A stretch of 64,000 nucleotides of DNA from Sinorhizobium fredii NGR234. Its GTDB lineage: Bacteria; Pseudomonadota; Alphaproteobacteria; Rhizobiales; Rhizobiaceae. The stretch spans positions 1,054,001 to 1,118,000 of the forward strand of contig NC_012586.1 in assembly GCF_000018545.1 (NCBI RefSeq), in the 5' to 3' direction. The translations under genes and the position numbers were made by a program. Shown here one piece after another: positions 11,938-50,653 of the stretch; the stretch's first letter is position 1, and each line of letters begins with the position of its first letter. The notes below the pieces were generated by a model. It was not told where the DNA came from and ran no database searches. It was given only the letters and a program-made list of their open reading frames with translations.

Positions 11938-12569
11938 CTAAAACTTGCGGCTGACGAACGGCGAGTCTTTCAGCCCGAACCGCCAGGGCTGTTCGACGGC
12001 CTTGGAAATCCCGACGCGGAAGCCGGAAGAGAGCAGCGGCCGCCTGACCGGCCTAGCCGAAACGGCTCTCCATTGAGAGGCAGGCCATCCTCCTCCTTGC
12101 CGATCGCCAGGGCCTGGCCGACCCGTCCGGGACCCGAACAGAGCAACCTCTCCGGCGAGACGCCCCGCCTCTCCCGCATCGTCTCCAGCCCCCATCGCGG
12201 CTCGAGAGCGCGGATCAGCACGGCGCTGCCGGGCAGGCAGACGAAATTCAGGCACCAGTGCAGGCCGTAGGACAAATAGACATAGGCATGCGCCGGCGGA
12301 CCGAACATCGAGCGATTGCGCGTGGTGGCACCCGCGAAACTGTGGGAGGCCGCATCGTCCGGCAGATAGGCTTCGGTTTCGACGATAAGGCCACCGACGC
12401 CGGAAACGGCGAATTCGGCGCCGATCAGGTCCGCGGCGACGGCGACGGCGTCGCGTGCAAAGAAGCTGTCATCCCACTGCAATCGATAGAACTCCTCGGT
12501 CGTCCTGCTGTATGTAGACGCATCCCTCACGCTCGCCAATGTCGCGTCCCGGTCCCGTCCCGTAGCCAT
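11938..12569 (-). pseudogene. DNA-3-methyladenine glycosylase (AAG/MPG), frameshifted near the 3' end
   Basis: The main frame runs from an ATG at 12569 and encodes an AAG-family glycosylase that removes alkylated purines: [31 protein letters not shown] (catalytic Glu in VETEAY) and [16 protein letters not shown] are intact. Near 12035-12045 the frame leaves the family pattern and stops at 11970, while another frame carries the true family ending [20 protein letters not shown]...SRKF to 11938. A one-base lesion therefore separates the last 27 or so residues, which include the core strand with PWRFG. Either the enzyme is damaged or the assembly has an error. Divergent from the DUF763 gene; next to the ligase. 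Confidence 0.75.
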
Positions 12570-41590: not shown

Positions 41591-42760
41591 CTAATGGCCC
41601 GCGACTCGAAGACGTTGCTCGTGGGCCTGCTCGACCATGCCCGCGTCGATGATCGTCTTGGCATCGTCGTTCTCCCACGCGCCGCGGCGACGATCGGCGA
41701 CGCCCGGTACGATCTCCACGGGAATGCCGAGTTTGCCAAGCCATGCAGCTTCTTGTTGGCTGTCGGCATTGGTCACCGGATCGCCCGCCTGAAGGCGCAC
41801 GACGCGCTTTCCGGCTCTCGCGAGAACGTTTACCGACGCGCTTCCATCTTGAATGCCCGCGTCCCGGCTCGGTTGGCTGACCAGGATGCGCTTGGCCTCG
41901 CGCCGCGCCAGTTCCAGCACGTCGTTTGAAATCCGCTCATCGTAGAGGATGACGTCGGCCGCCTGGAGCGCCCGGACCGACTTGAGGGTCAAGAGTTCCG
42001 CATCGCCCGGGCCTGCGCCGACGATGGTGACGCGGCCGACGGGGGGGCGGGGCGTCGCCAGACGATCCATCTCCACCATCAGCCGCGCCTCAACACCCTC
42101 CTCCGGTGTATCGATAAATGCCCGGTCGACGAAACGCTCCCAGAAGGCGCGGCGCTGGACGCCCGGTTGCAGTCGTCCATTCACCCGCTCGCGGATCGCC
42201 TGGGCGATCCCAGCCCAGCGCTTGATCGCCGGCGGCAGCAGGGTCTCGATCCGCCGCCGGATCGCCTGCGCCAGGATGGGTGCCGCCCCGTCGGTCGAGA
42301 TTGCCACGACAACGGGCGAGCGATTGACGATCGATCCGAACTGGAACTGGCAGAACTGCGGCTTGTCGATGACGTTGACGGGCACGCCAGCCAAGCGCGC
42401 CGCCTTGAAGAAGGCCTCGGCCCCTCGATCATCGTCACAGTCGGCGATCGCCAGCGCCGCATCGCCGAAGATGCCGTCATGCCAGGATTCGTCATGATGC
42501 ACGAAGGAGCCGTCTTCATCGGCGGCGCCGCGGGCGATGAGGTCGAGAAAACCGTCGCCGAGGTCCGCATGCGATGCGTAAATGTGCACTTCGGCGCCGC
42601 AGGCCGCCAGAAGTTCGGCTTTCCAGGCGGCGCCGTCGCTGCCGCCGGCAACGACGGCCCGCTTGCCTTTCAACGACCAGAAAAGCGGCAGCGTCGCGAG
42701 CGCCGCGACGCGCTGCGGCTTCGAGGCTCGATCATTCGGCAGCGGCGGCAAGGCATGCAT
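41591..42760 (-). CDS. cysG: CysG-type siroheme synthase with shortened methyltransferase domain
   Basis: 389 residues; typical CysG has about 460. Residues 20-120 form the precorrin-2 dehydrogenase/ferrochelatase Rossmann part (LKGKRAVVAGGSDGAAWKAE), then the dimer domain and the start of the uroporphyrinogen methyltransferase (VGRVTIVGAGPGDAELLTLK, DVILYDERISNDVL). After VRLQAGDP the usual FGRxxEE continuation is replaced by VTNADSQQEAAWLG and the protein ends about 30 residues past EIVPGV, lacking roughly the last 100 residues of the domain. It overlaps nasA by 29 bases. Makes siroheme for NirB, or at least its last two steps. Confidence 0.82.
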   Translation of the reverse strand: MHALPPLPNDRASKPQRVAALATLPLFWSLKGKRAVVAGGSDGAAWKAELLAACGAEVHIYASHADLGDGFLDLIARGAADEDGSFVHHDESWHDGIFGDAALAIADCDDDRGAEAFFKAARLAGVPVNVIDKPQFCQFQFGSIVNRSPVVVAISTDGAAPILAQAIRRRIETLLPPAIKRWAGIAQAIRERVNGRLQPGVQRRAFWERFVDRAFIDTPEEGVEARLMVEMDRLATPRPPVGRVTIVGAGPGDAELLTLKSVRALQAADVILYDERISNDVLELARREAKRILVSQPSRDAGIQDGSASVNVLARAGKRVVRLQAGDPVTNADSQQEAAWLGKLGIPVEIVPGVADRRRGAWENDDAKTIIDAGMVEQAHEQRLRVAGH

Positions 42761-45389
42761 GGATGATCCCCCTGATTTCGGAGCGGCAGGAGCCGCAATT
42801 GGTGCCGGCGCTGGTCTTTTGACCGACCGCCTCGACGCTGTGACAGCCTTCACGGATGGCGGCGGTGATCTGGTTGACACCGACGCTGAAGCAGGAACAG
42901 ACGGTCGCCCCCGGGTCGGGCTTGTCGGCACCGGGGCGGCCGGCGGCAACCGCGAAGCGCTTGCTGAGATTGGCGTGCGAAGCACTAAGCTGCGAAACCG
43001 CCCAGTTCCGCGCCACGGCGACCGGCCGGGGCGACAGGAACAGCGCGGCGAGCAACCTTTCGCCGTCGAAGAAGGCGAGGCGGAATTCGCCGGAGGTCCG
43101 GTCCGTATAGCCGATCGGGTCGATTTCGGCGGGAATTGAAAAGGCCTTCCGGCACCAGTCGATCCAATCGCCGTCCACATCGGTCTGGGCAAGCTCCATC
43201 CGCCATCCGCCCTCGGCCTTGGCAACCGCCCAATAGGCGGCGTCGAGCCCCTCGGGCTTCGTTGCCGAAACGGCGAAGCCGTATGTCTTGGCCGAGAAGC
43301 GTTTGGCCCGGACTGCGACGTTCTTCGACGCCGGCTGGCCGGAGAAGGGGTCGGTCAGAGGCGCGACGAGAGCGTCGATGCGCGCCTTCGAGGCGAATTG
43401 ATCATTCCAGTGCATCGGCACGAAGAGATTGCCTTCGGCCTGGCGATCGGTGACCAGAGCCCGCACGATCGCCGCGCCAAGCGGGCTCTCGATCGTCACG
43501 AGATCGGCATCGGATACGCCGATGGTCTGCGCATCGCGCGGGTGGATTTCGACGAAGGGCTCGGCCAGATGACTGGAAAGCCGCGCGCTCTTGCCGGAGC
43601 GGGTCATCGTGTGCCAGTGGTCTCGAACCCGGCCGGTATTGAGGGTATAGGGGAAGGCCGCATCGACACGGCGCGGCTGCGGCGCCTGAACGGCGATGAA
43701 GCGGGCGCGGCCATCCGCATGGTAGAACCCGCCTTCCGCGAAGAAGCGTCTCTCCTGCGGTGCCTTGTCCTTTGGCTGCGGCCATTGGAAAGGGGCGAGA
43801 GCGTCATAGGCCGCCGTTTCGATCACCGCATGGGCGCTGATATCGAAATCGCGGCGGCCGTCGTTTTCGAAGCCGGAAAGAGCGGCGTGCTCGGCAAAGA
43901 TCTCGGACTGCGACGAATGGCGGAAGGCCTCCTGAAATCCCATCCGCCGCGCGACCTCGGCGAGTTGCCACCAGTCGGCGCGCGCTTCGCCGGGCGCCGC
44001 GAGAAAGGCACGCTGGCGCGAGATGCGCCGCTCCGAATTGGTCACGGTGCCGTCCTTTTCGCCCCAGCCGAGCGACGGCAGGGCTACATGGGCGTGCCGG
44101 GCGGTATCGGTCTGTCGCTGCATCTCGGAGACGACGACGAAGGGGCAGGCCTTGATCGCCGCTTCGACGGCGTCGGCGTCGGGCATCGAGACGACCGGGT
44201 TGGTCGCCATGATCCACAGCGCCTTGATGCGGCCGTCGGCAACGGCGCGGAACATATCCACCGCCTTGAGGCCCGGCTTCGAGGCGACTGCGGGAGCCCC
44301 CCAGAAGCGCCGCACCAGATCGCGGTCGACCGACTTCTCGATATCGAGGTGGGCGGCAAGCATATTGGCAAGCCCGCCGACTTCGCGCCCGCCCATCGCA
44401 TTGGGCTGGCCCGTCAGCGAGAAGGGGCCCATGCCCGGGCGGCCGATGCGGCCGGCCGCAAGGTGACAGTTGAGGATGGCGTTGACCTTGTCGGTGCCGG
44501 CGGACGATTGGTTGACGCCCTGGCTGTAGCAGGTCACGACCTTTTCTGTCGCTTCGAACAGACGAAAGAATTCGCGCAGCTGTTTTTGCGCGAGGCCCGT
44601 CGCGTCCGACAGGGCAGGGAGATCGAGACCCGAAGCGGCCTGAAGGGCCTCGGCGAAGCCGTTGGTATTGGCCGAAACATAGTCCCAGCCGATGGCGCCG
44701 CTCTCGGCAAGATGAACGAGGAGCCCGTTGAAAAGCGCCACGTCGCCGTCCGGCGCGATCGCCAGATGCATGTCGGCGATGTCGGCCGTCATGGTCCGCC
44801 GGGGATCGATGACGACGACCTGCATCTCCGGGCGGTTTGCCTTCGCCGCCGCCAGGCGCTGGTAGAGCACCGGATGGCACCAGGCCATGTTGGAGCCGGT
44901 CAGGATGACGAGATCGGCGAGTTCCAGATCCTCATAGCTGCCCGGCACCGTATCCGAGCCGAAGGCGCGCCGATGGCCGGCGACAGAAGACGACATGCAG
45001 AGGCGCGAATTGGTATCGATATTGGCGGAGCCGATGAAGCCCTTCATCAGCTTGTTGGCGAGGTAGTAGTCCTCGGTCAGCAATTGCCCCGACACGTAAA
45101 GGGCCACCGAATCCGGTCCGTGCTCGGCGATGCTTTGCGAAAATTTTTCGGCTACGAGGTCAAGTGCTTCGTCCCAACCTGCGCGGCGGCCGCCGATTTC
45201 CGGATGGAGGAGACGGCCGTCGAGATCGAGGGTTTCGGCGAGCGCCGCGCCCTTCGAGCAGAGCCGGCCGAAATTGGCCGGATGCTCGGGATCGCCCTTG
45301 ACGCTGACGGCACCGTCATCACTCACGCGGGCGATGACGCCGCAGCCGACGCCGCAATAGGGACAGGTGGTCTTGACCTCGTGCGCCAT
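42732..45389 (-). CDS. nasA: Assimilatory nitrate reductase, large catalytic subunit
   Basis: 885 residues. It reduces nitrate to nitrite in the cytoplasm. N-terminal [4Fe-4S] site TCPYCGVGCGV...GRLCSKG; bis-MGD molybdenum domains with SRLCMSSSVAG as the Mo-ligand region; a C-terminal BFD-like [2Fe-2S] domain (GATVCSCFSVGVNQITAAI, TNCGSCRSE) typical of NasA of proteobacteria. No Tat signal, as expected for the assimilatory enzyme. Also called narB. Two bases after nirD; the cysG start lies inside its 3' end. Electron donor probably the NirB-type NADH module or a flavoprotein not found here. Confidence 0.93.
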   Translation of the reverse strand: MAHEVKTTCPYCGVGCGVIARVSDDGAVSVKGDPEHPANFGRLCSKGAALAETLDLDGRLLHPEIGGRRAGWDEALDLVAEKFSQSIAEHGPDSVALYVSGQLLTEDYYLANKLMKGFIGSANIDTNSRLCMSSSVAGHRRAFGSDTVPGSYEDLELADLVILTGSNMAWCHPVLYQRLAAAKANRPEMQVVVIDPRRTMTADIADMHLAIAPDGDVALFNGLLVHLAESGAIGWDYVSANTNGFAEALQAASGLDLPALSDATGLAQKQLREFFRLFEATEKVVTCYSQGVNQSSAGTDKVNAILNCHLAAGRIGRPGMGPFSLTGQPNAMGGREVGGLANMLAAHLDIEKSVDRDLVRRFWGAPAVASKPGLKAVDMFRAVADGRIKALWIMATNPVVSMPDADAVEAAIKACPFVVVSEMQRQTDTARHAHVALPSLGWGEKDGTVTNSERRISRQRAFLAAPGEARADWWQLAEVARRMGFQEAFRHSSQSEIFAEHAALSGFENDGRRDFDISAHAVIETAAYDALAPFQWPQPKDKAPQERRFFAEGGFYHADGRARFIAVQAPQPRRVDAAFPYTLNTGRVRDHWHTMTRSGKSARLSSHLAEPFVEIHPRDAQTIGVSDADLVTIESPLGAAIVRALVTDRQAEGNLFVPMHWNDQFASKARIDALVAPLTDPFSGQPASKNVAVRAKRFSAKTYGFAVSATKPEGLDAAYWAVAKAEGGWRMELAQTDVDGDWIDWCRKAFSIPAEIDPIGYTDRTSGEFRLAFFDGERLLAALFLSPRPVAVARNWAVSQLSASHANLSKRFAVAAGRPGADKPDPGATVCSCFSVGVNQITAAIREGCHSVEAVGQKTSAGTNCGSCRSEIRGIIHACLAAAAE

Positions 45390-45391
45390 GT

Positions 45392-45724
45392 CTACTCCGC
45401 GGCGGCCAGCGTCAGGTTCTCAAGCGCGATGGAGAGGGCGCCGTTGTCGTTCTTCACCGGGATGGTGCGTACCGCGCCTTCGTCGGCACCCAGCGCCTTG
45501 CCGGTTTCGAGCGAGATCACCCAGTTGTGCAGCGGGCAGGTGACGGCATTGCCATGGACAATGCCCTGGCTGAGCGGCCCGCCCTTGTGCGGGCAGTGAT
45601 CCTCGATCGCGAAGACCTCGTTCTCGGCGGTGCGGAAGACGGCGATCTTGCCGATCGGCGTCTTGACGCAACGGGCACCGCGCAGCGGAATGTCGCTGAT
45701 CTCGCCAATAGCAATCCAGTTCAT
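45392..45724 (-). CDS. nirD: Nitrite reductase small subunit
   Basis: 110 residues, a Rieske-fold subunit of NADH-dependent nitrite reductase. CPHKGGPLSQG and CPLHNWVISLETG have the Cys-His pairs of a Rieske [2Fe-2S] site (CPH, CPLH), so the cluster is likely present. GAGGTGATGACA precedes the ATG chosen at 45724. It is 10 bases after nirB and feeds the complex with it. Confidence 0.92.
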   Translation of the reverse strand: MNWIAIGEISDIPLRGARCVKTPIGKIAVFRTAENEVFAIEDHCPHKGGPLSQGIVHGNAVTCPLHNWVISLETGKALGADEGAVRTIPVKNDNGALSIALENLTLAAAE

Positions 45725-45734
45725 TGTCATCACC

Positions 45735-48197
45735 TCATTCCGCTGCCTGGTTGAAGCCGACCGTCGCCATCGGCCGGAACTCATGCTTGTCCTTGCCGGA
45801 GACGCGCTCCGACCAGGGATCGACCTGGGCGAACTTCTGGCTGAAGACGAAACGGTCGTAAAAGGCCTTGCGCTTCTCGGCATCGTCCATGATCTGCCGG
45901 CGGATCTCGTCGAGGCCGATGCGCTTCGCCCACTTGTAGATGCGCTCCAGGTAGCGGGCCTGTTCACGATACATCTGCGTCAGCGCGACGATATGCTCGA
46001 GCGCCTCGTCCTCGGTCTTGACCAGCCCCAGAACCTCGGTGCCCTTGATATCGAGACCGGCGGCGCCGGCGAAGTGGATCTCGAAGCCGGAGTCGACGCA
46101 GATCACGCCGATGTCCTTGCAGGTCGCTTCGGCGCAGTTGCGCGGGCAGCCGGAGACGGCCATCTTCAACTTGGCCGGCGTCCACGAGCCCCACATGAAC
46201 TTCTCGATGCGGATGCCGAGGCCGGTCGAATCCTGGGTGCCGAAGCGACACCAGTCGGAGCCGACGCAGGTCTTTACGGTCCTGAGGCCCTTGGCATAGG
46301 CCTGGCCGGAGACGAAGCCGGCCTTGCCGAGATCGGACCAGACCGCCGGCAGGTCCTCCTTCTCGATGCCGAGCAGGTCGATGCGCTGGCCGCCGGTGAC
46401 CTTGACCAGCGGAACGTTAAACTTGTCGACGACATCGGCGATGGCGCGCAGTTCCTGCGAATTGGTGACGCCGCCCCACATGCGCGGCACCACCGAATAG
46501 GTGCCGTCCTTCTGGATGTTGGCGTGGACGCGCTCGTTGATGAAGCGCGACTGGTAGTCGTCGGCATATTCGTCCGGCCAGTCGCAGACGAGATAGTAGT
46601 TGAGGGCGGGGCGACATTTGGCGCAGCCGCAGGAGGTCTTCCACTCGAGTTCCTGCATGACGGCGGGAATCGTCTTCAGCCCCTTCGCCTTGATCAGCCG
46701 GCGCACGTCGTCATGGCCGAGTTCGGTGCAGTTGCACATCCGCTGGACGGCGGCGGGGTTGTAGCCTTCGCCGAGGGTAACCGACATCAGCTGCTCGACG
46801 AGACCCGTGCAGGAGCCGCAGGAGGCCGACGCCTTGGTGTGGGCGCGCACCTCGTCGAGCGAGGTCAAACCCTTGGACGTGATCGTCGAGACGATCTTGC
46901 CCTTGCACACGCCGTTGCAGCCGCAGATTTCCGCATCATCCGGCAAGGCTGCAACGGCCGCCGTAGGGTCCAGCGGGGCTCCTCCCTGATAGGCCTGGCC
47001 GAAGATCAGGGTGTCGCGCATTTCGGAGATGTCGGTGCCGCGCTTCAACAGGTCGTTGAACCAGGCGCCGTCCGTGGTCTCGCCGTAGAGCACCGTACCG
47101 ACGATGCGGTTTTCCTTGAGCACCAGCCGCTTGTAGACGCCGGCGGTGGCGTCGCGCAGCACGATCTCCTCGCGGTCGTCTCCGTCGGCGAAGTCGCCGA
47201 CCGAATAGAGGTTGATGCCGGTCACCTTCAGCTTGGTCGGGGTGTCCGAGTGGACGAAGGCCGCCTTGCGCTCTCCGGCAAGGTGAGAGGCGGCAACCCG
47301 GGCCATCTCGTAGAGCGGCGCCACGAGGCCATAGACCATTCCGCCGACTTCGGCGCACTCGCCGAGCGCCATGATGTCTCCGTCGGAGGTCTGCATGCCG
47401 GTGTCGACGACGATGCCGCGGTTGACGGCAAGCCCGGCATCCTTGGCCAGGCCGGCATTCGGCCTGATGCCGACGGCCATGACGACGAGTGTCGCCGGAA
47501 TGATCCGGCCGTCGTCGAGTTCGATGCCCTCGACCTTTTCCTCGCCGACGATGCGTTTGGTATTCGCCTTTGTAATGACCTTGATGCCGCGTTCTTCGAC
47601 CGCTTTCTGAAGCAGGTAGCCGGCGGCCGGGTCGAGCTGGCGCTCCATCAGGGTCGGCATGACGTGCAGGACCGTGACGTCCATGCCGCGCTGGGCGAGA
47701 CCGGCGGCCGCTTCCAGGCCAAGCAGGCCGCCACCGATGACGACCGCCTTTTCGCGCGACTGGGCGGCGAGCAGCATCGCCTGCACGTCATCGAGGTCGC
47801 GATAGGTGATGACGCCGCGCAGGTCCTTGCCGGGCACGGGGATGATGAAGGGCACCGAGCCGGTGGCGATCACCAGCTTGTCGTAGCTTTCCGTAACGCC
47901 ATGGTCGGACGTGACCGTCTTGGCGTTGCGGTCGATCGCGACGATCTTGTGACCCTTGTAGAGGGTGATGCCGTGCTTGATGTACCAGCCGTCGCCATGG
48001 ATGATGATCTCTTCATAGTCTTTTTCGCCGGACAGCACCGGCGAGAGCATGATGCGGTCATAATTGACGCGCGGCTCGGCGTTGAAGATCGTCACTTGAT
48101 AGCGCCCGGGCGCCTTCTCGAAGAGCTCTTCGAGCATGCGGCCCGGCGCCATGCCGTTGCCGACGATGACGAGTTTTTCAGGGGTGCGTTCAGCCAT
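45735..48197 (-). CDS. nirB: Nitrite reductase [NAD(P)H] large subunit
   Basis: 820 residues. Reduces nitrite to ammonium with six electrons. N-terminal FAD/NAD module (KLVIVGNGMAPGRMLEEL, VVIGGGLLGLEAAAGLAQRG), BFD-type [2Fe-2S] domain (CGCNGVCKGKI, SCGSCTGLVEQL), then the sirohaem/[4Fe-4S] domains with TCVGSDWCRFGTQDS and SGCPRNCAEATCKD, the four cluster cysteines. Full length. Seven bases after the 53-codon remnant; followed by nirD, nasA and cysG as one transcript. Confidence 0.95.
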   Translation of the reverse strand: MAERTPEKLVIVGNGMAPGRMLEELFEKAPGRYQVTIFNAEPRVNYDRIMLSPVLSGEKDYEEIIIHGDGWYIKHGITLYKGHKIVAIDRNAKTVTSDHGVTESYDKLVIATGSVPFIIPVPGKDLRGVITYRDLDDVQAMLLAAQSREKAVVIGGGLLGLEAAAGLAQRGMDVTVLHVMPTLMERQLDPAAGYLLQKAVEERGIKVITKANTKRIVGEEKVEGIELDDGRIIPATLVVMAVGIRPNAGLAKDAGLAVNRGIVVDTGMQTSDGDIMALGECAEVGGMVYGLVAPLYEMARVAASHLAGERKAAFVHSDTPTKLKVTGINLYSVGDFADGDDREEIVLRDATAGVYKRLVLKENRIVGTVLYGETTDGAWFNDLLKRGTDISEMRDTLIFGQAYQGGAPLDPTAAVAALPDDAEICGCNGVCKGKIVSTITSKGLTSLDEVRAHTKASASCGSCTGLVEQLMSVTLGEGYNPAAVQRMCNCTELGHDDVRRLIKAKGLKTIPAVMQELEWKTSCGCAKCRPALNYYLVCDWPDEYADDYQSRFINERVHANIQKDGTYSVVPRMWGGVTNSQELRAIADVVDKFNVPLVKVTGGQRIDLLGIEKEDLPAVWSDLGKAGFVSGQAYAKGLRTVKTCVGSDWCRFGTQDSTGLGIRIEKFMWGSWTPAKLKMAVSGCPRNCAEATCKDIGVICVDSGFEIHFAGAAGLDIKGTEVLGLVKTEDEALEHIVALTQMYREQARYLERIYKWAKRIGLDEIRRQIMDDAEKRKAFYDRFVFSQKFAQVDPWSERVSGKDKHEFRPMATVGFNQAAE

Positions 48198-48204
48198 TGG
48201 GTAA

Positions 48205-48366
48205 TCACTCCGCAGCTTCGACGAAGCGCACGGCTTCGCGACAGTTCAGGTAGGTCCGGCCGGAGGCGAGCTCGATCGGCCGGCGCTCAGGCGCGAACAC
48301 CCCATCGAGGGCATCGCCAATTCGTGCAAACGGTCCGTTGGCCATCATCACGATGCGGTCGGTCAT
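48205..48366 (-). CDS. 53-codon remnant resembling the C-terminus of a nitrate ABC ATPase (NrtC/NrtD)
   Basis: MTDRIVMMANGPFARIGDAL, then VFAPERRPIELASGRTYLN: this matches the last 50 residues of NrtC/NrtD-type nitrate transporter ATPases, where the (L)TDRIVMMxNGP segment follows the H-loop. The whole catalytic part (Walker A, signature, Walker B) is missing, and the sequence ahead of the Met is unrelated. GAGGAAGGTGCGC before the ATG would still let it be translated, 7 bases before nirB. Best read as a scar of a deleted nitrate importer between the leader and nirB; a functional leader peptide is a weaker alternative. Confidence 0.65.
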   Translation of the reverse strand: MTDRIVMMANGPFARIGDALDGVFAPERRPIELASGRTYLNCREAVRFVEAAE

Positions 48367-48491
48367 GCGCACCTTCCTCAAATCCGTTGACCGGTCGAAA
48401 CCGGCATAAAAAAAACGCCGCTCGGACTTTCGCGCTCCGGGACCGGGAGGGTCTCCTGGAGGCAATGACCTTGCGACGTCGGTGTCTTTGG

Positions 48492-48510
48492 CAGGCGCCA
48501 TCGGCGCCTG
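48492..48510 (-). promoter_or_regulatory. Second leader hairpin
   Basis: Perfect 8-bp stem CAGGCGCC/GGCGCCTG with a GAT (minus strand) triloop, six bases after the first hairpin. Too tight a loop to be a standard second ANTAR hairpin. Confidence 0.55.
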
Positions 48511-48516
48511 AGCTCG

Positions 48517-48538
48517 TTTCAATCGCCTTTGATTGAAA
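48517..48538 (-). promoter_or_regulatory. Putative ANTAR-target hairpin
   Basis: Perfect 8-bp stem TTTCAATC/GATTGAAA enclosing the hexaloop AAAGGC, with A at loop position 1 and G at position 4, the residues that define ANTAR-protein target hairpins. It begins at the predicted RNA 5' end. Its likely binder is NasT (50063-50653). Confidence 0.6.
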
Positions 48539-48550
48539 CAGTTCTAGAAA

Positions 48551-48566
48551 AGCAAGCGCCGTGCCA
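48551..48566 (-). promoter_or_regulatory. Sigma-54 promoter of the nitrate assimilation operon
   Basis: Minus strand TGGCACGGCGCTTGCT: an exact match to the RpoN consensus TGGCACG-N4-TTGCW. GC at the -12 position places the RNA start near 48540. NtrC would be the expected activator, giving nitrogen control; NasT adds nitrate control. Confidence 0.8.
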
Positions 48567-48711
48567 ATTTGGCAGATGCCTTCGATGTCATTGATATTGT
48601 TGAAGAAGTGCAATGCTTGTCAGGTGCACAAAAAGACGCCATTCAGGCCGGATGGTCAATAATTGTGCGGTGCGGTATCGGGAATGCTGCTTAAAAAAGC
48701 AGCGCCTTCGC

Positions 48712-50016
48712 TCAGATGTCGTCGAGCGAAGCGTCGGGAAGGCTGGTCGCCTTTACAGGAAAGGCCTCGATGTAATCCCGGATCAGTTTCGGGTCGAAGA
48801 TGTGTCCGTCCATGAAGCGATCATCGGGCATTGCGCCTTCGACAGCAAAGTCGTCCATCGCCGGCGGGGCCAGTCTCCCGAGAGCCCGGCGGTAAAGTGC
48901 CGGCCGGTAGGCGGAAAGGCTTGCCTCGGTCCCCTCGGTGGACAACGCCGTCTGTCCCCAGCGGACCATCTGGCTGTAGATCCACAGCGCCTGGCTCGGC
49001 CGGGGAAAATTGGCGAAGCCCGCGTGGAAGACGAAATAGTCGTCGATGACACGCTGGTTGCCTTCTGGATCGATGGTGAATTCGCCGGCCAGCACCCGGC
49101 GGATGATGTCGACGGGGGCGCCGACGTAGCGTTGTTCGGCAAGAGCCTCCGCGAGTGCTGCGCGGTTCTCAGCCGCGTCGCACCAGCGGGCAGCGGCGTC
49201 CAGCGCAACGATCAGGCGTGAAACGGTCTCCGGATTGGCATCGGCCCATTCCGGTCGCATGCCGAGGACCTTTTCCGGCGCGGAGGGCCAGATGTCCTGC
49301 TTGGTCGCGACGATGCGACCGACGCCACGCTCCGAGGCGACCATGTTCCACGGGGCGCCGACGCAAAAGCCGTCGATGGCGCTGGCTGCGAGCGCATCGG
49401 ATGTCATCGGCGGCGGCACGACGACGAGCTTGACGTCGCGGTCCGGGTCGATGCCTCCGGCCGCCAGCCAATAGCGGAACTCGTAATTGTGCGAGGAAAA
49501 CGGGTAGGTGACGCCAAGCGTCAGCGGCGGCCGGCCGGCGGCCCGGTTGCGCCGGATCACGGCTGCCAGGGCCTGCGCGTTCGAAAGGGCGGTTGCGCCG
49601 GCGTCGAGGTCGCCCGCCATCTGCATGTCGGCATAGAGCCGCGACGACAGGGTGATCGCATTGCCGCCGCGTCCGAGCGAAAAGGGCGCGATTGTCGGCG
49701 ATGGGTTGGAGCCGAGGCCGAGCATCGCGGCGACCGGCATCGGCGAGAGCATGTGTGCCACGTCGAACTGGCGAAAGGCGAGACGGTCGCGGACGTTTGC
49801 CCAGGAGACCTCCTTCACCAGATCGAGGGTGATACCTTCCTTCTGCGCGAAGCCGAATTCGGCGGCGGCGATCAGCACGGCCGCATCGACGAGCGGAATA
49901 AAGCCGGCCCGCACGGTACGTGATCCTTCGTGTCCTGCGATTGCCGGGGCCGGCAGGCCATCGCCGGCGGCAAGTTTGCTCGCCTTGGACTGGTCGATAT
50001 GCGTCAATGCGTTCAC
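48712..50016 (-). CDS. nasS: NasS nitrate/nitrite sensor (NrtA-like, cytoplasmic)
   Basis: 434 residues of the NrtA/CmpA nitrate-binding fold (VRAGFIPLVDAAVLIAAAEF, RDRLAFRQFDVAHMLSPMPV, VTYPFSSHNYEFRYWLAAGG). There is no signal peptide or lipobox, only a hydrophilic start, so it is the soluble sensor NasS rather than the transporter's binding protein. NasS holds NasT inactive until nitrate or nitrite binds. GTG start after GGGGGAGATCGGA. Second gene of the nasTS pair, 46 bases after nasT, directly before the leader it controls. Confidence 0.88.
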   Translation of the reverse strand: MNALTHIDQSKASKLAAGDGLPAPAIAGHEGSRTVRAGFIPLVDAAVLIAAAEFGFAQKEGITLDLVKEVSWANVRDRLAFRQFDVAHMLSPMPVAAMLGLGSNPSPTIAPFSLGRGGNAITLSSRLYADMQMAGDLDAGATALSNAQALAAVIRRNRAAGRPPLTLGVTYPFSSHNYEFRYWLAAGGIDPDRDVKLVVVPPPMTSDALAASAIDGFCVGAPWNMVASERGVGRIVATKQDIWPSAPEKVLGMRPEWADANPETVSRLIVALDAAARWCDAAENRAALAEALAEQRYVGAPVDIIRRVLAGEFTIDPEGNQRVIDDYFVFHAGFANFPRPSQALWIYSQMVRWGQTALSTEGTEASLSAYRPALYRRALGRLAPPAMDDFAVEGAMPDDRFMDGHIFDPKLIRDYIEAFPVKATSLPDASLDDI

Positions 50017-50062
50017 TCCGATCTCCCCCGGCGCGCTGCCCGGTGCGGCTGGTGTCCGTCGT

Positions 50063-50653
50063 TCATCGGATCAGCAATCCGGCGGCGGTGACCACGCTTT
50101 GCGCGATTTCCGAGATCTTCTTTTTCTCGTTCATTGCGGTTTGGCGAAGCAGCGTGAAGGCCTCCTCCTCGGAAAGCCCTCGCATTTTCATGAGGATGCC
50201 TTTGGCGCGCTCGACGAGCTTGCGTTCCTCGAGGGCCGATTTTGCGTCGGCAAGTTCCCGTTGAAGCCGGCTGAAGGCATTGAAACGGCTGACGGCCATG
50301 TCGAGGATAGGCTTGACGCGTTCCTTTCTGAGCCCGTCGATCACGTAAGCAGAGACGCCGGCCTCGACTGCCGCCTCGATCGAGGCGGTGTCGGAGCGGT
50401 CGACGAACATGGCAATCGGCCGGCCGACGGTGCGCGTCAGCTGGAAGAGGTGCTCCATCATGTCCCGGTTGGGGTTTTCGATGTCGATGACGATCACGTC
50501 GGGCTGCAGCGTCTCGATGGTGCGTGCAACCCCGTGAACTTCGTGGATGACCGTGACATTGCCGTGGCCTGCTTCGCGCAGGCCCTCCTCGATGATCGAG
50601 GCGCGAATGGCGTTCTCGTCAATGACTAGAATGGTCAGGTCTCGCTGGGACAT
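50063..50653 (-). CDS. nasT: NasT, ANTAR-domain antiterminator
   Basis: 196 residues. A receiver-like domain (LTILVIDENAIRASIIEEGL, DVIVIDIENPNRDMMEH) is followed by a C-terminal ANTAR RNA-binding domain at about 135-190 (ERKLVERAKGILMKMRGLSE, EEAFTLLRQTAM). NasT binds hairpins in the leader of nitrate assimilation mRNAs and lets polymerase pass the terminator; NasS inhibits it without nitrate. The receiver pocket has Asp/Glu residues but phosphorylation is not needed in the known systems. Its target hairpin is proposed at 48517-48538. Confidence 0.92.
   Translation of the reverse strand: MSQRDLTILVIDENAIRASIIEEGLREAGHGNVTVIHEVHGVARTIETLQPDVIVIDIENPNRDMMEHLFQLTRTVGRPIAMFVDRSDTASIEAAVEAGVSAYVIDGLRKERVKPILDMAVSRFNAFSRLQRELADAKSALEERKLVERAKGILMKMRGLSEEEAFTLLRQTAMNEKKKISEIAQSVVTAAGLLIR

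Follow-up and report, generated by a model that had tools for sequence, protein, structure and literature searches.

The leader that precedes the nitrate assimilation operon nirB-nirD-nasA-cysG of Sinorhizobium fredii NGR234 is, on comparative evidence, very probably an RpoN-initiated transcription attenuator under the control of NasT, with a putative second hexaloop inside the 5' arm of its terminator. It lies in a stretch of 64,000 nucleotides (nt) (NC_012586.1, positions 1,054,001 to 1,118,000; hereafter the window), part of a 2,430,033-base contig in a genome of 6,891,900 bases and three contigs. On the minus strand of the window nasT, nasS, the RpoN site, the leader, a short open reading frame (ORF) and nirB-nirD-nasA-cysG follow each other in this order; a first-pass annotation of the DNA had placed nasT-nasS upstream and nirBD-nasA-cysG downstream, and Pfam and NCBIfam profiles support these assignments. 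The anatomy of the leader, its conservation, the covariation of its first two hairpins, the overlap with the terminator, a second copy and a deletion scar were established from sequence and comparison with nasT loci of relatives (the best 80 of at least 532 loci, in named genomes), which together with the window provide 81 leaders. The leader comprises the following elements.

48552..48566, minus strand: RpoN (sigma-54) -24/-12 promoter TGGCACGGCGCTTGC, from pattern match and conservation
48516..48539, minus strand: P1, a 9-bp stem with hexaloop AAAGGC (A1, G4), conserved and covarying
48492..48510, minus strand: spacer hairpin, an 8-bp stem with a GAU loop and no hexaloop, from covariation
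48475..48486, minus strand: P2, GAC[ACCGAC]GUC, second A1/G4 hexaloop inside the terminator 5' arm, from comparison
48408..48480, minus strand: intrinsic terminator, in which GACGUCGC (48480-48473) pairs with GCGGCGUU (48421-48414), with an inner hairpin between them and U8 thereafter
48655..48668, minus strand: weak candidate for an upstream activator (NtrC-like) element, GCACAATTATTGAC

Promoter, hairpins and terminator

As the first-pass annotation had it, the promoter is exact: within the window nothing but TGGCACGGCGCTTGC matches TGGCACN5TTGC exactly, while matches with one mismatch permitted occur at chance level. TGGCAYN5TTGC is present in 81/81 leaders, and in the 80 relatives the site lies 149-916 nt past the end of the nasS match. 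P1 is formed by nine perfect pairs, GTTTCAATC/GATTGAAAC, around AAAGGC, and an A1/G4 hexaloop stands at the same place in all 81 leaders (AACGGC in 51, AAUGGC in 18, AAAGGC in 8, AACGAC in 2, AACGAA and AAGGGC in one each), the search pattern for P1, but not that for P2, having demanded A1 and G4. The P1 loop starts 35 or 36 nt past the start of TGGCAC in every leader; from this constant offset and sigma-54 geometry, the RNA probably starts at the foot of P1 (predicted +1 about 48540). The conservation in related rhizobia that the first-pass annotation required is borne out: the RpoN site and the P1 A1/G4 loop occur in 80/80 relatives besides the window, hence the observation is real and far above chance. 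The folding of the leader beats all 200 dinucleotide shuffles (z -3.76). When the sequence in front of the RpoN site was searched for an NtrC palindrome, a GCACAA-type element alone turned up, a weak lead; GCACAA lies within the 200 nt that precede the RpoN site in 69/84 leaders and might, at a guess from known motifs, belong to an NtrC site.

The perfect stem with its AAAGGC hexaloop, a second hairpin and a U8 run had all been described before, and all are present. The earlier description had, however, taken the second hairpin, with its triloop, for a stand-in for the second ANTAR hairpin and suggested a one-hairpin variant target, overlooking both the hexaloop within the terminator and a scar of NrtC origin between leader and nirB. 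A better P2, GAC[ACCGAC]GUC (loop A1 at 48483, G4 at 48480), lies further downstream: GACGUCGC, the 5' arm of the 8-bp terminator stem, consists of positions 4-6 of the P2 loop, the P2 3' arm and the next two bases, and the U8 run occupies 48415-48408. We call canonical the 64/81 leaders, the window included, in which GAC-N6-GUCGC is present. All 64 P2 loops read A-[C/U]-[C/A/U]-G-A-C, with A1 and G4 fixed and positions 2-3 varying (AUCGAC 30, ACCGAC 10, AUAGAC 9, ACAGAC 7, ACUGAC 5, AUUGAC 3). The GAC arm and A1 lie outside the terminator, yet they are invariant, an argument for P2. Where the same genome carries the leader a second time (see below), the loop reads ACCGGC and the matching base of the terminator 3' arm is C in place of U: a compensatory exchange of an A-U for a G-C pair.

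Between P1 and P2 lies the spacer hairpin, CAGGCGCC-GAT-GGCGCCTG. In the 64 aligned leaders both-side changes are found in 5/7 of its pairs (89.5% of cells paired) and in 6/9 pairs of P1 (93.7% of cells paired); the covariation score of P1, spacer and P2 taken together is 0.314, versus 0.180 when shuffled and at most 0.090 with slid partners. P2 and the terminator are nearly invariant and hence neutral in this test. The middle loop measures 3-9 nt and is an A1/G4 hexaloop in none of the leaders, a 6-nt CAGAUC loop being the script's best pick in five; in a few leaders (e.g. L003, L046, L063, L072, L078) that pick is another small hairpin. The P1 and P2 loops are 41 nt apart in the window and 39-43 nt across the canonical leaders, a distance bridged by the covarying hairpin, so that the short linker reported for eutP, which is no formal criterion of the family, is not found here; in eutP an altered linker length lowered induction (PMC3369931; here and below, papers with a PMC number are cited from excerpts of their text).

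Could NasT touch P1 alone, with the triloop hairpin in the place of P2 and the terminator melted otherwise? Such a one-hairpin target would agree with the conservation of the spacer hairpin and with Walshe et al. 2022, in whose revised definition one hexaloop suffices as the minimal ANTAR binding site (PMC8934654). It is nevertheless very unlikely in view of the A1/G4 P2 in the terminator arm of all 64 canonical leaders, the equivalent P2 of 19/40 distant loci with differing sequences, e.g. GGC[AACGCU]GCC, and the closely similar P2/terminator of the RF03032 loci (both described below).

The same architecture in relatives, distant loci and narK RNA

The architecture was examined with a strict test that demands an A1/G4 hexaloop with at least 4 pairs (P1), a second one 8-60 nt on with at least 3 pairs (P2), and pairing of at least 8 bases between the P2 loop/3' arm and a stretch running into a U-run of at least 5 (terminator). 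A second hexaloop within the terminator was thereby found in 77/81 Rhizobiaceae leaders versus 0/1620 dinucleotide shuffles: 63/64 canonical leaders pass via the GAC-N6-GUC P2 itself and 14/17 non-canonical ones via another P2.

Outside the family, a search of the class gave some NasT match in 201/385 genomes, many of them merely weak receiver matches; among the matches listed, 57 places had E <1e-30, our own genome excluded, and 40 of these were studied as distant alphaproteobacterial nasT loci. The strict test is passed by 19/40 of them (0/800 shuffles), and 21/40 have, downstream of nasS or nasT, a looser RpoN-like pattern. Their P2 is often GGC[AACGCU]GCC or GGC[AAAGCU]GCC, inside AACGCUGCC...GGCAGCGUUUUU, so P2 and terminator change jointly across families. 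P1 and P2 are for the most part 12-28 or 35-51 nt apart, with 58 and 60 nt once each. Twelve loci have at least 35 nt; a middle hairpin beats mononucleotide shuffles (<=26/500) in seven of these and does not in five, the latter including L133 and L147 with a middle A1/G4 hexaloop. R1, our covariance model of P1-spacer-P2, matched the 40 distant loci with E 0.0028 at best, so the reach of the three-hairpin model is limited. Three A1/G4 hexaloops in series occur in L133, L134, L146 and L147, all from other alphaproteobacteria. Four further nasT-linked leaders (L114, L115, L148, L149) have hexaloops and no terminator found by the strict test; possibly they represent another mode of control.

At the gathering threshold Rfam gave no match in the whole window. 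Below it, the leader matches RF03032, 'narK RNA', which we take to be an orphan candidate RNA, with 27.0 bits (E 0.002) against a gathering score of 43.2, a value short of membership. Similarly to the leader, the RF03032 consensus holds an RpoN promoter, GGCAGCC[AACGGC]GGCUGCC and CGAC[AAAGAC]GUCGC; the Rfam model line pairs P1 alone and leaves the second of these, the P2, unpaired. Unlike the leader, RF03032 is compact and has no spacer hairpin: its P1 and P2 loops are 15-26 nt apart in 17/18 loci passing a relaxed test and 33 nt apart in one. Of 30 RF03032 loci, 16 pass the strict and 18 the relaxed architecture test, versus 0/300 mononucleotide shuffles each. The family is matched in 21/398 Pseudomonadota genomes, 16 of them above the gathering score, and all 21 encode an ANTAR protein as compared with 155/398 overall (hypergeometric 1e-9, relatedness not corrected and 16/21 belonging to one family). 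In 15 genomes the match nearest the ANTAR gene begins downstream of the ANTAR domain, at 28-2154 nt, and in four it is upstream by about 1.9 kb; in the other two (G989, G1003) it lies at least 7 kb away by the listed coordinates. In several genomes the strongest match is not the one nearest to the ANTAR gene.

The open-access literature searched, with most subscription papers beyond its scope, yielded no paper naming narK RNA and no description of a Sinorhizobium NasT leader or of a three-hairpin ANTAR target. We tentatively put forward, with somewhat less than even confidence in the whole, that RpoN promoter, P1 and terminator-embedded P2 define a single nitrate-switch family, widespread in Pseudomonadota and with narK RNA among its members, that in the Rhizobiaceae it evolved into the three-hairpin form, in which the middle hairpin, in some distant relatives (L133, L134, L146, L147) still an A1/G4 hexaloop, would have its own function (as a third contact for NasT, as a site of pausing, or as a rigid spacer setting the hand-over from P1 to P2), and that copies travel with transporter genes and so build split regulons, as with the three loci on two replicons of S. 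meliloti. The leader would supply narK RNA with a likely function, and it lends itself naturally to testing how ANTAR antitermination is handed over from P1 to P2, as the model has it, since the hairpin sits between the two contact sites.

Proposed mechanism and its signal

In the mechanism that we propose, RpoN polymerase, probably activated by NtrC under nitrogen scarcity, would start at about 48540 and place P1 at the extreme 5' end of the RNA. Without free NasT, GACGUCGC would pair with GCGGCGUU and, with U8, end transcription about 133 nt in. On binding nitrate or nitrite NasS would release NasT, as reported for Paracoccus, and NasT would bind the P1 and then the P2 hexaloop; as P2 shares bases with the terminator 5' arm, the terminator could not form and nirBD-nasA-cysG would be transcribed. 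The middle hairpin would act as a spacer that holds P1 and P2 near each other despite loops 41 nt apart. The antitermination leader under an RpoN promoter, as first annotated, is in this sense supported by the comparative evidence. The two proteins are encoded directly upstream:

50063..50653, minus strand: nasT, receiver-like domain and ANTAR RNA-binding protein (Pfam ANTAR E 3.5e-21)
48712..50016, minus strand: nasS, NMT1/NrtA-like putative nitrate/nitrite sensor (Pfam NMT1_2 E 3.7e-77)

The nasS match starts 18-116 nt past nasT in 80/80 relatives. The structure of EutV (6wsh) can be aligned to NasT over 5-188, and the RNA-contact residues named for EutV, R142, K149, E160 and Y164 (PMC8934654), fall on NasT R144, K151, E162 and F166 in our mapping, which assumes a chain offset of two residues. 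In our own reading of this alignment NasT seems to be without the full phospho-receiver residue set, consistent with sequestration by NasS and not with phosphorylation. Directly past nasS, GCTGCTTTTTTAAGCAGC at 48684-48702 is a possible nasTS terminator.

RpoN initiation combined with ANTAR attenuation is already known in kind from Klebsiella nasF/NasR (in part described in PMC5424462). Similarly to the leader in the window, eutP/EutV of E. faecalis and nasF/NasR of K. oxytoca have two A1/G4 hexaloops, the second inside the terminator (PMC3369931, PMC8934654); what sets the leader here apart is the additional covarying hairpin between P1 and P2, with the loops 39-43 nt from each other. Paracoccus denitrificans and Bradyrhizobium diazoefficiens have the same NasS-NasT proteins, and their NasT acts on nasA and nosR leaders (PMC5424462, PMC6759348). 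In P. denitrificans two hairpins are described, HI for binding and HII for attenuation (PMC5424462), in contrast to the P1, spacer and P2/terminator of the Rhizobiaceae; an HI mutation severely lowers PnasA-lacZ activity, and growth on nitrate is lost when HI is mutated in the chromosome (PMC5424462). For Sinorhizobium, a 2019 paper says that the mechanism is not known yet (PMC6616083); the leader offers a testable one for its nitrate assimilation.

Several points weigh against this attenuator, or against nitrate as its signal. P2 has three pairs, which are invariant in the 64 leaders and therefore lend it no covariation support, and its 3' arm is also under the constraint of the terminator. 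RNAfold puts the energy minimum at the terminated state, in which P2 is absent, as expected without protein. A P2/terminator of the GAC-N6-GUCGC type is lacking in 17/81 leaders, four of the 81 (L005, L048, L055, L061) fail the strict test, and so do 21/40 distant loci. NasT-dependent genes of B. diazoefficiens are mostly without a NasT hairpin, according to PMC6759348. In S. meliloti, nirB and narB rise about 1000-fold without ammonium and nitrate adds little (PMC6616083), while in P. denitrificans nas transcripts are similar on nitrate or glutamate (PMC5424462), so nitrate-dependent attenuation may be weak.

The slight nitrate effect may reflect NasT outnumbering NasS under starvation. This is the basis of another explanation, which disputes the signal and not the anatomy and is compatible with the attenuator: RpoN/NtrC and a higher NasT:NasS ratio under starvation would antiterminate regardless of nitrate, and the RNA switch would read starvation. 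It would account for the derepression in S. meliloti just cited, and the induction of SMb21115 (NasT homologue) by 65-fold and of SMb21114 (NasS homologue) by 12-fold, cited as partly unpublished in PMC6616083, points the same way. Against it stand the conservation of NasS, the hexaloops and the terminator, and the Paracoccus NasG protein, which is seen only with nitrate (PMC5424462); on balance we deem it unlikely, although it merits serious attention. We keep to the two-signal scheme of the first-pass annotation in part: that nitrogen status sets initiation fits the co-induction of S. meliloti loci (PMC3596328, see below), while for nitrate, which would set elongation, only a slight induction appears in one S. 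meliloti data set (PMC6616083).

Second leader copy and probable history of the operon

In the 6.9-Mb genome of NGR234, R1 gave two strong matches, the nirB leader (E 3.7e-14) and C2:1524249-1524317 (E 9.5e-12), about 420 kb apart on one contig. The second leader comes with an RpoN site of its own, and about 100 nt separate it from nrtA, behind which nrtB and nrtC follow; nrtB (TIGR01183) and nrtC (TIGR01184) are above cut-off, and NrtA is named from its position and the annotation of the S. meliloti orthologue. A third match (C3:3656378, E 0.0018), within a P-type ATPase-like frame named by eye, was rejected as chance, and the remaining six have E >=0.48. Among 297 genomes of the family R1 matches 63, of which 61 encode NasT (a match at E 1e-40 or better) versus 90/234 of the others (Fisher 5e-19, relatedness not corrected); the two R1-positive genomes without NasT score 29.7 bits, near the cut-off.

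S. meliloti 1021 and 2011 have the system in three separate places: nasTS (pSymB, about 755 kb), leader-nirB (pSymB, about 1215 kb; R1 score 65.6 bits) and leader-nrtABC (pSymA; 71.5 bits), the nasTS stretch having no R1 match above 12.6 bits. SMa0581-0583-0585 (nrtABC), SMb21114 and SMb20984-20985 belong to one common nitrogen-limitation cluster (PMC3596328), and the co-induction of the three loci under nitrogen limitation agrees with shared RpoN promoters. The target operon of Sinorhizobium is thus split, unlike the Paracoccus and Bradyrhizobium systems as described. The leaders would explain how a single NasT could co-regulate genes on two replicons. In NGR234, NasT is the sole ANTAR match found across the genome by profile search.

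Downstream of the leader, the window holds the following.

48205..48372, minus strand: deletion scar, nrtA start (GTG CGC ATG ACC) joined in frame to the C-terminal tail of NrtC, with 53 codons counted from ATG 48366
45735..48197, minus strand: nirB, first intact gene of the controlled operon (TIGR02374 E 1.7e-272)
45392..45733, minus strand: nirD (TIGR02378 E 1.9e-30); the listed ORF extends further upstream
42732..45389, minus strand: nasA/narB-like molybdopterin assimilatory nitrate reductase, named by position and domains
41591..42700, minus strand: cysG siroheme synthase with a truncated methyltransferase domain (Pfam/NCBIfam)

The 53-codon ORF matches positions 182-225/230 of TIGR01184 (nitrate ABC transporter ATPases; E 3.8e-5) and the tail of the intact NrtC, and the bases upstream of the ORF, ...GTGCGCATGACC, recur where nrtA begins in the second copy (ATGCGCATGACC). 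The junction is common to S. glycinis, S. fredii USDA 205 and Ensifer sp. BR816; more of nrtA survives in E. aridi and S. americanum, and in S. medicae and S. meliloti the tail is broken and shorter. An NrtC-tail match lies more than 2.5 kb past the RpoN site in 55/80 relatives, at most 60 nt from nirB in 47 of these, and in one such genome (L206) nrtA, nrtB, nrtC and nirB were confirmed in order. As the NrtC tail of relatives is distant from the RpoN site and near nirB, the ancestral operon was probably leader-nrtABC-nirBD-nasA-cysG, with nrtABC lost here and a leader-nrtABC copy persisting elsewhere; the controlled operon of the window would be its remnant, in which the first and last nrtABC codons were left behind.

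A function of the 53-codon ORF as a small protein, or as a leader peptide involved in control, would be in keeping with the uninterrupted frame of the window and of three close relatives and with the Shine-Dalgarno-like GAGGAAGG. This is most improbable: the ratio of nonsynonymous to synonymous substitution (dN/dS) in three pairs is 0.77-1.19 for the tail (14-20 nonsynonymous changes, 53 codons) versus 0.04-0.05 for nirB, the ORF is shortened or otherwise broken in S. medicae, S. meliloti, S. americanum and E. aridi, it is placed after the terminator, and its homology is that of the NrtC tail. The ORF is probably not a functional protein and represents a deletion scar free of protein constraint.

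In the 17 non-canonical leaders (L014, L036, L038, L040, L044, L045, L048, L052, L055, L056, L060, L061, L062, L069, L071, L073, L079), from Rhizobium species that we read as R. etli-like, the old P2/terminator is gone, and the old P1 and spacer are followed by a second compact dual hexaloop with terminator, e.g. GGCGUCC[AACGGC]GGGCGCC and, within the terminator, CAGC[AAAGCC]GCUG; an MFS (NarK-like) gene comes next. An NrtC-tail match is absent from all 17. An MFS-like ORF precedes nirB in the four inspected (L014, L038, L044, L048); the best NCBIfam match of that in L044 is the NarK family (E 5e-65, below the model cut-off). A similar ORF follows the canonical leader of L067 and L057, and two genomes of the non-canonical type have nrtABC elsewhere, behind a canonical leader (L202-L205). 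In L048, positions 12050-12179 match weakly Rfam RF00625 (Pseudomonas small RNA P11; E 0.02), whose consensus likewise contains a TGGCAC...TGC promoter-like stretch; RF00625 may be another NasT/ANTAR-type leader.

As to the remaining genes, the nasA/narB-like reductase reached no NCBIfam equivalog cut-off in the Pfam/NCBIfam profile search. The uroporphyrinogen-III methyltransferase domain of CysG ends about halfway (profile 1-117 of 212) and is followed by a differing tail. The truncation is probably not a sequencing slip, because in S. fredii USDA 205 and S. glycinis the tblastn match covers 1110 nt, the entire query, including the same end.

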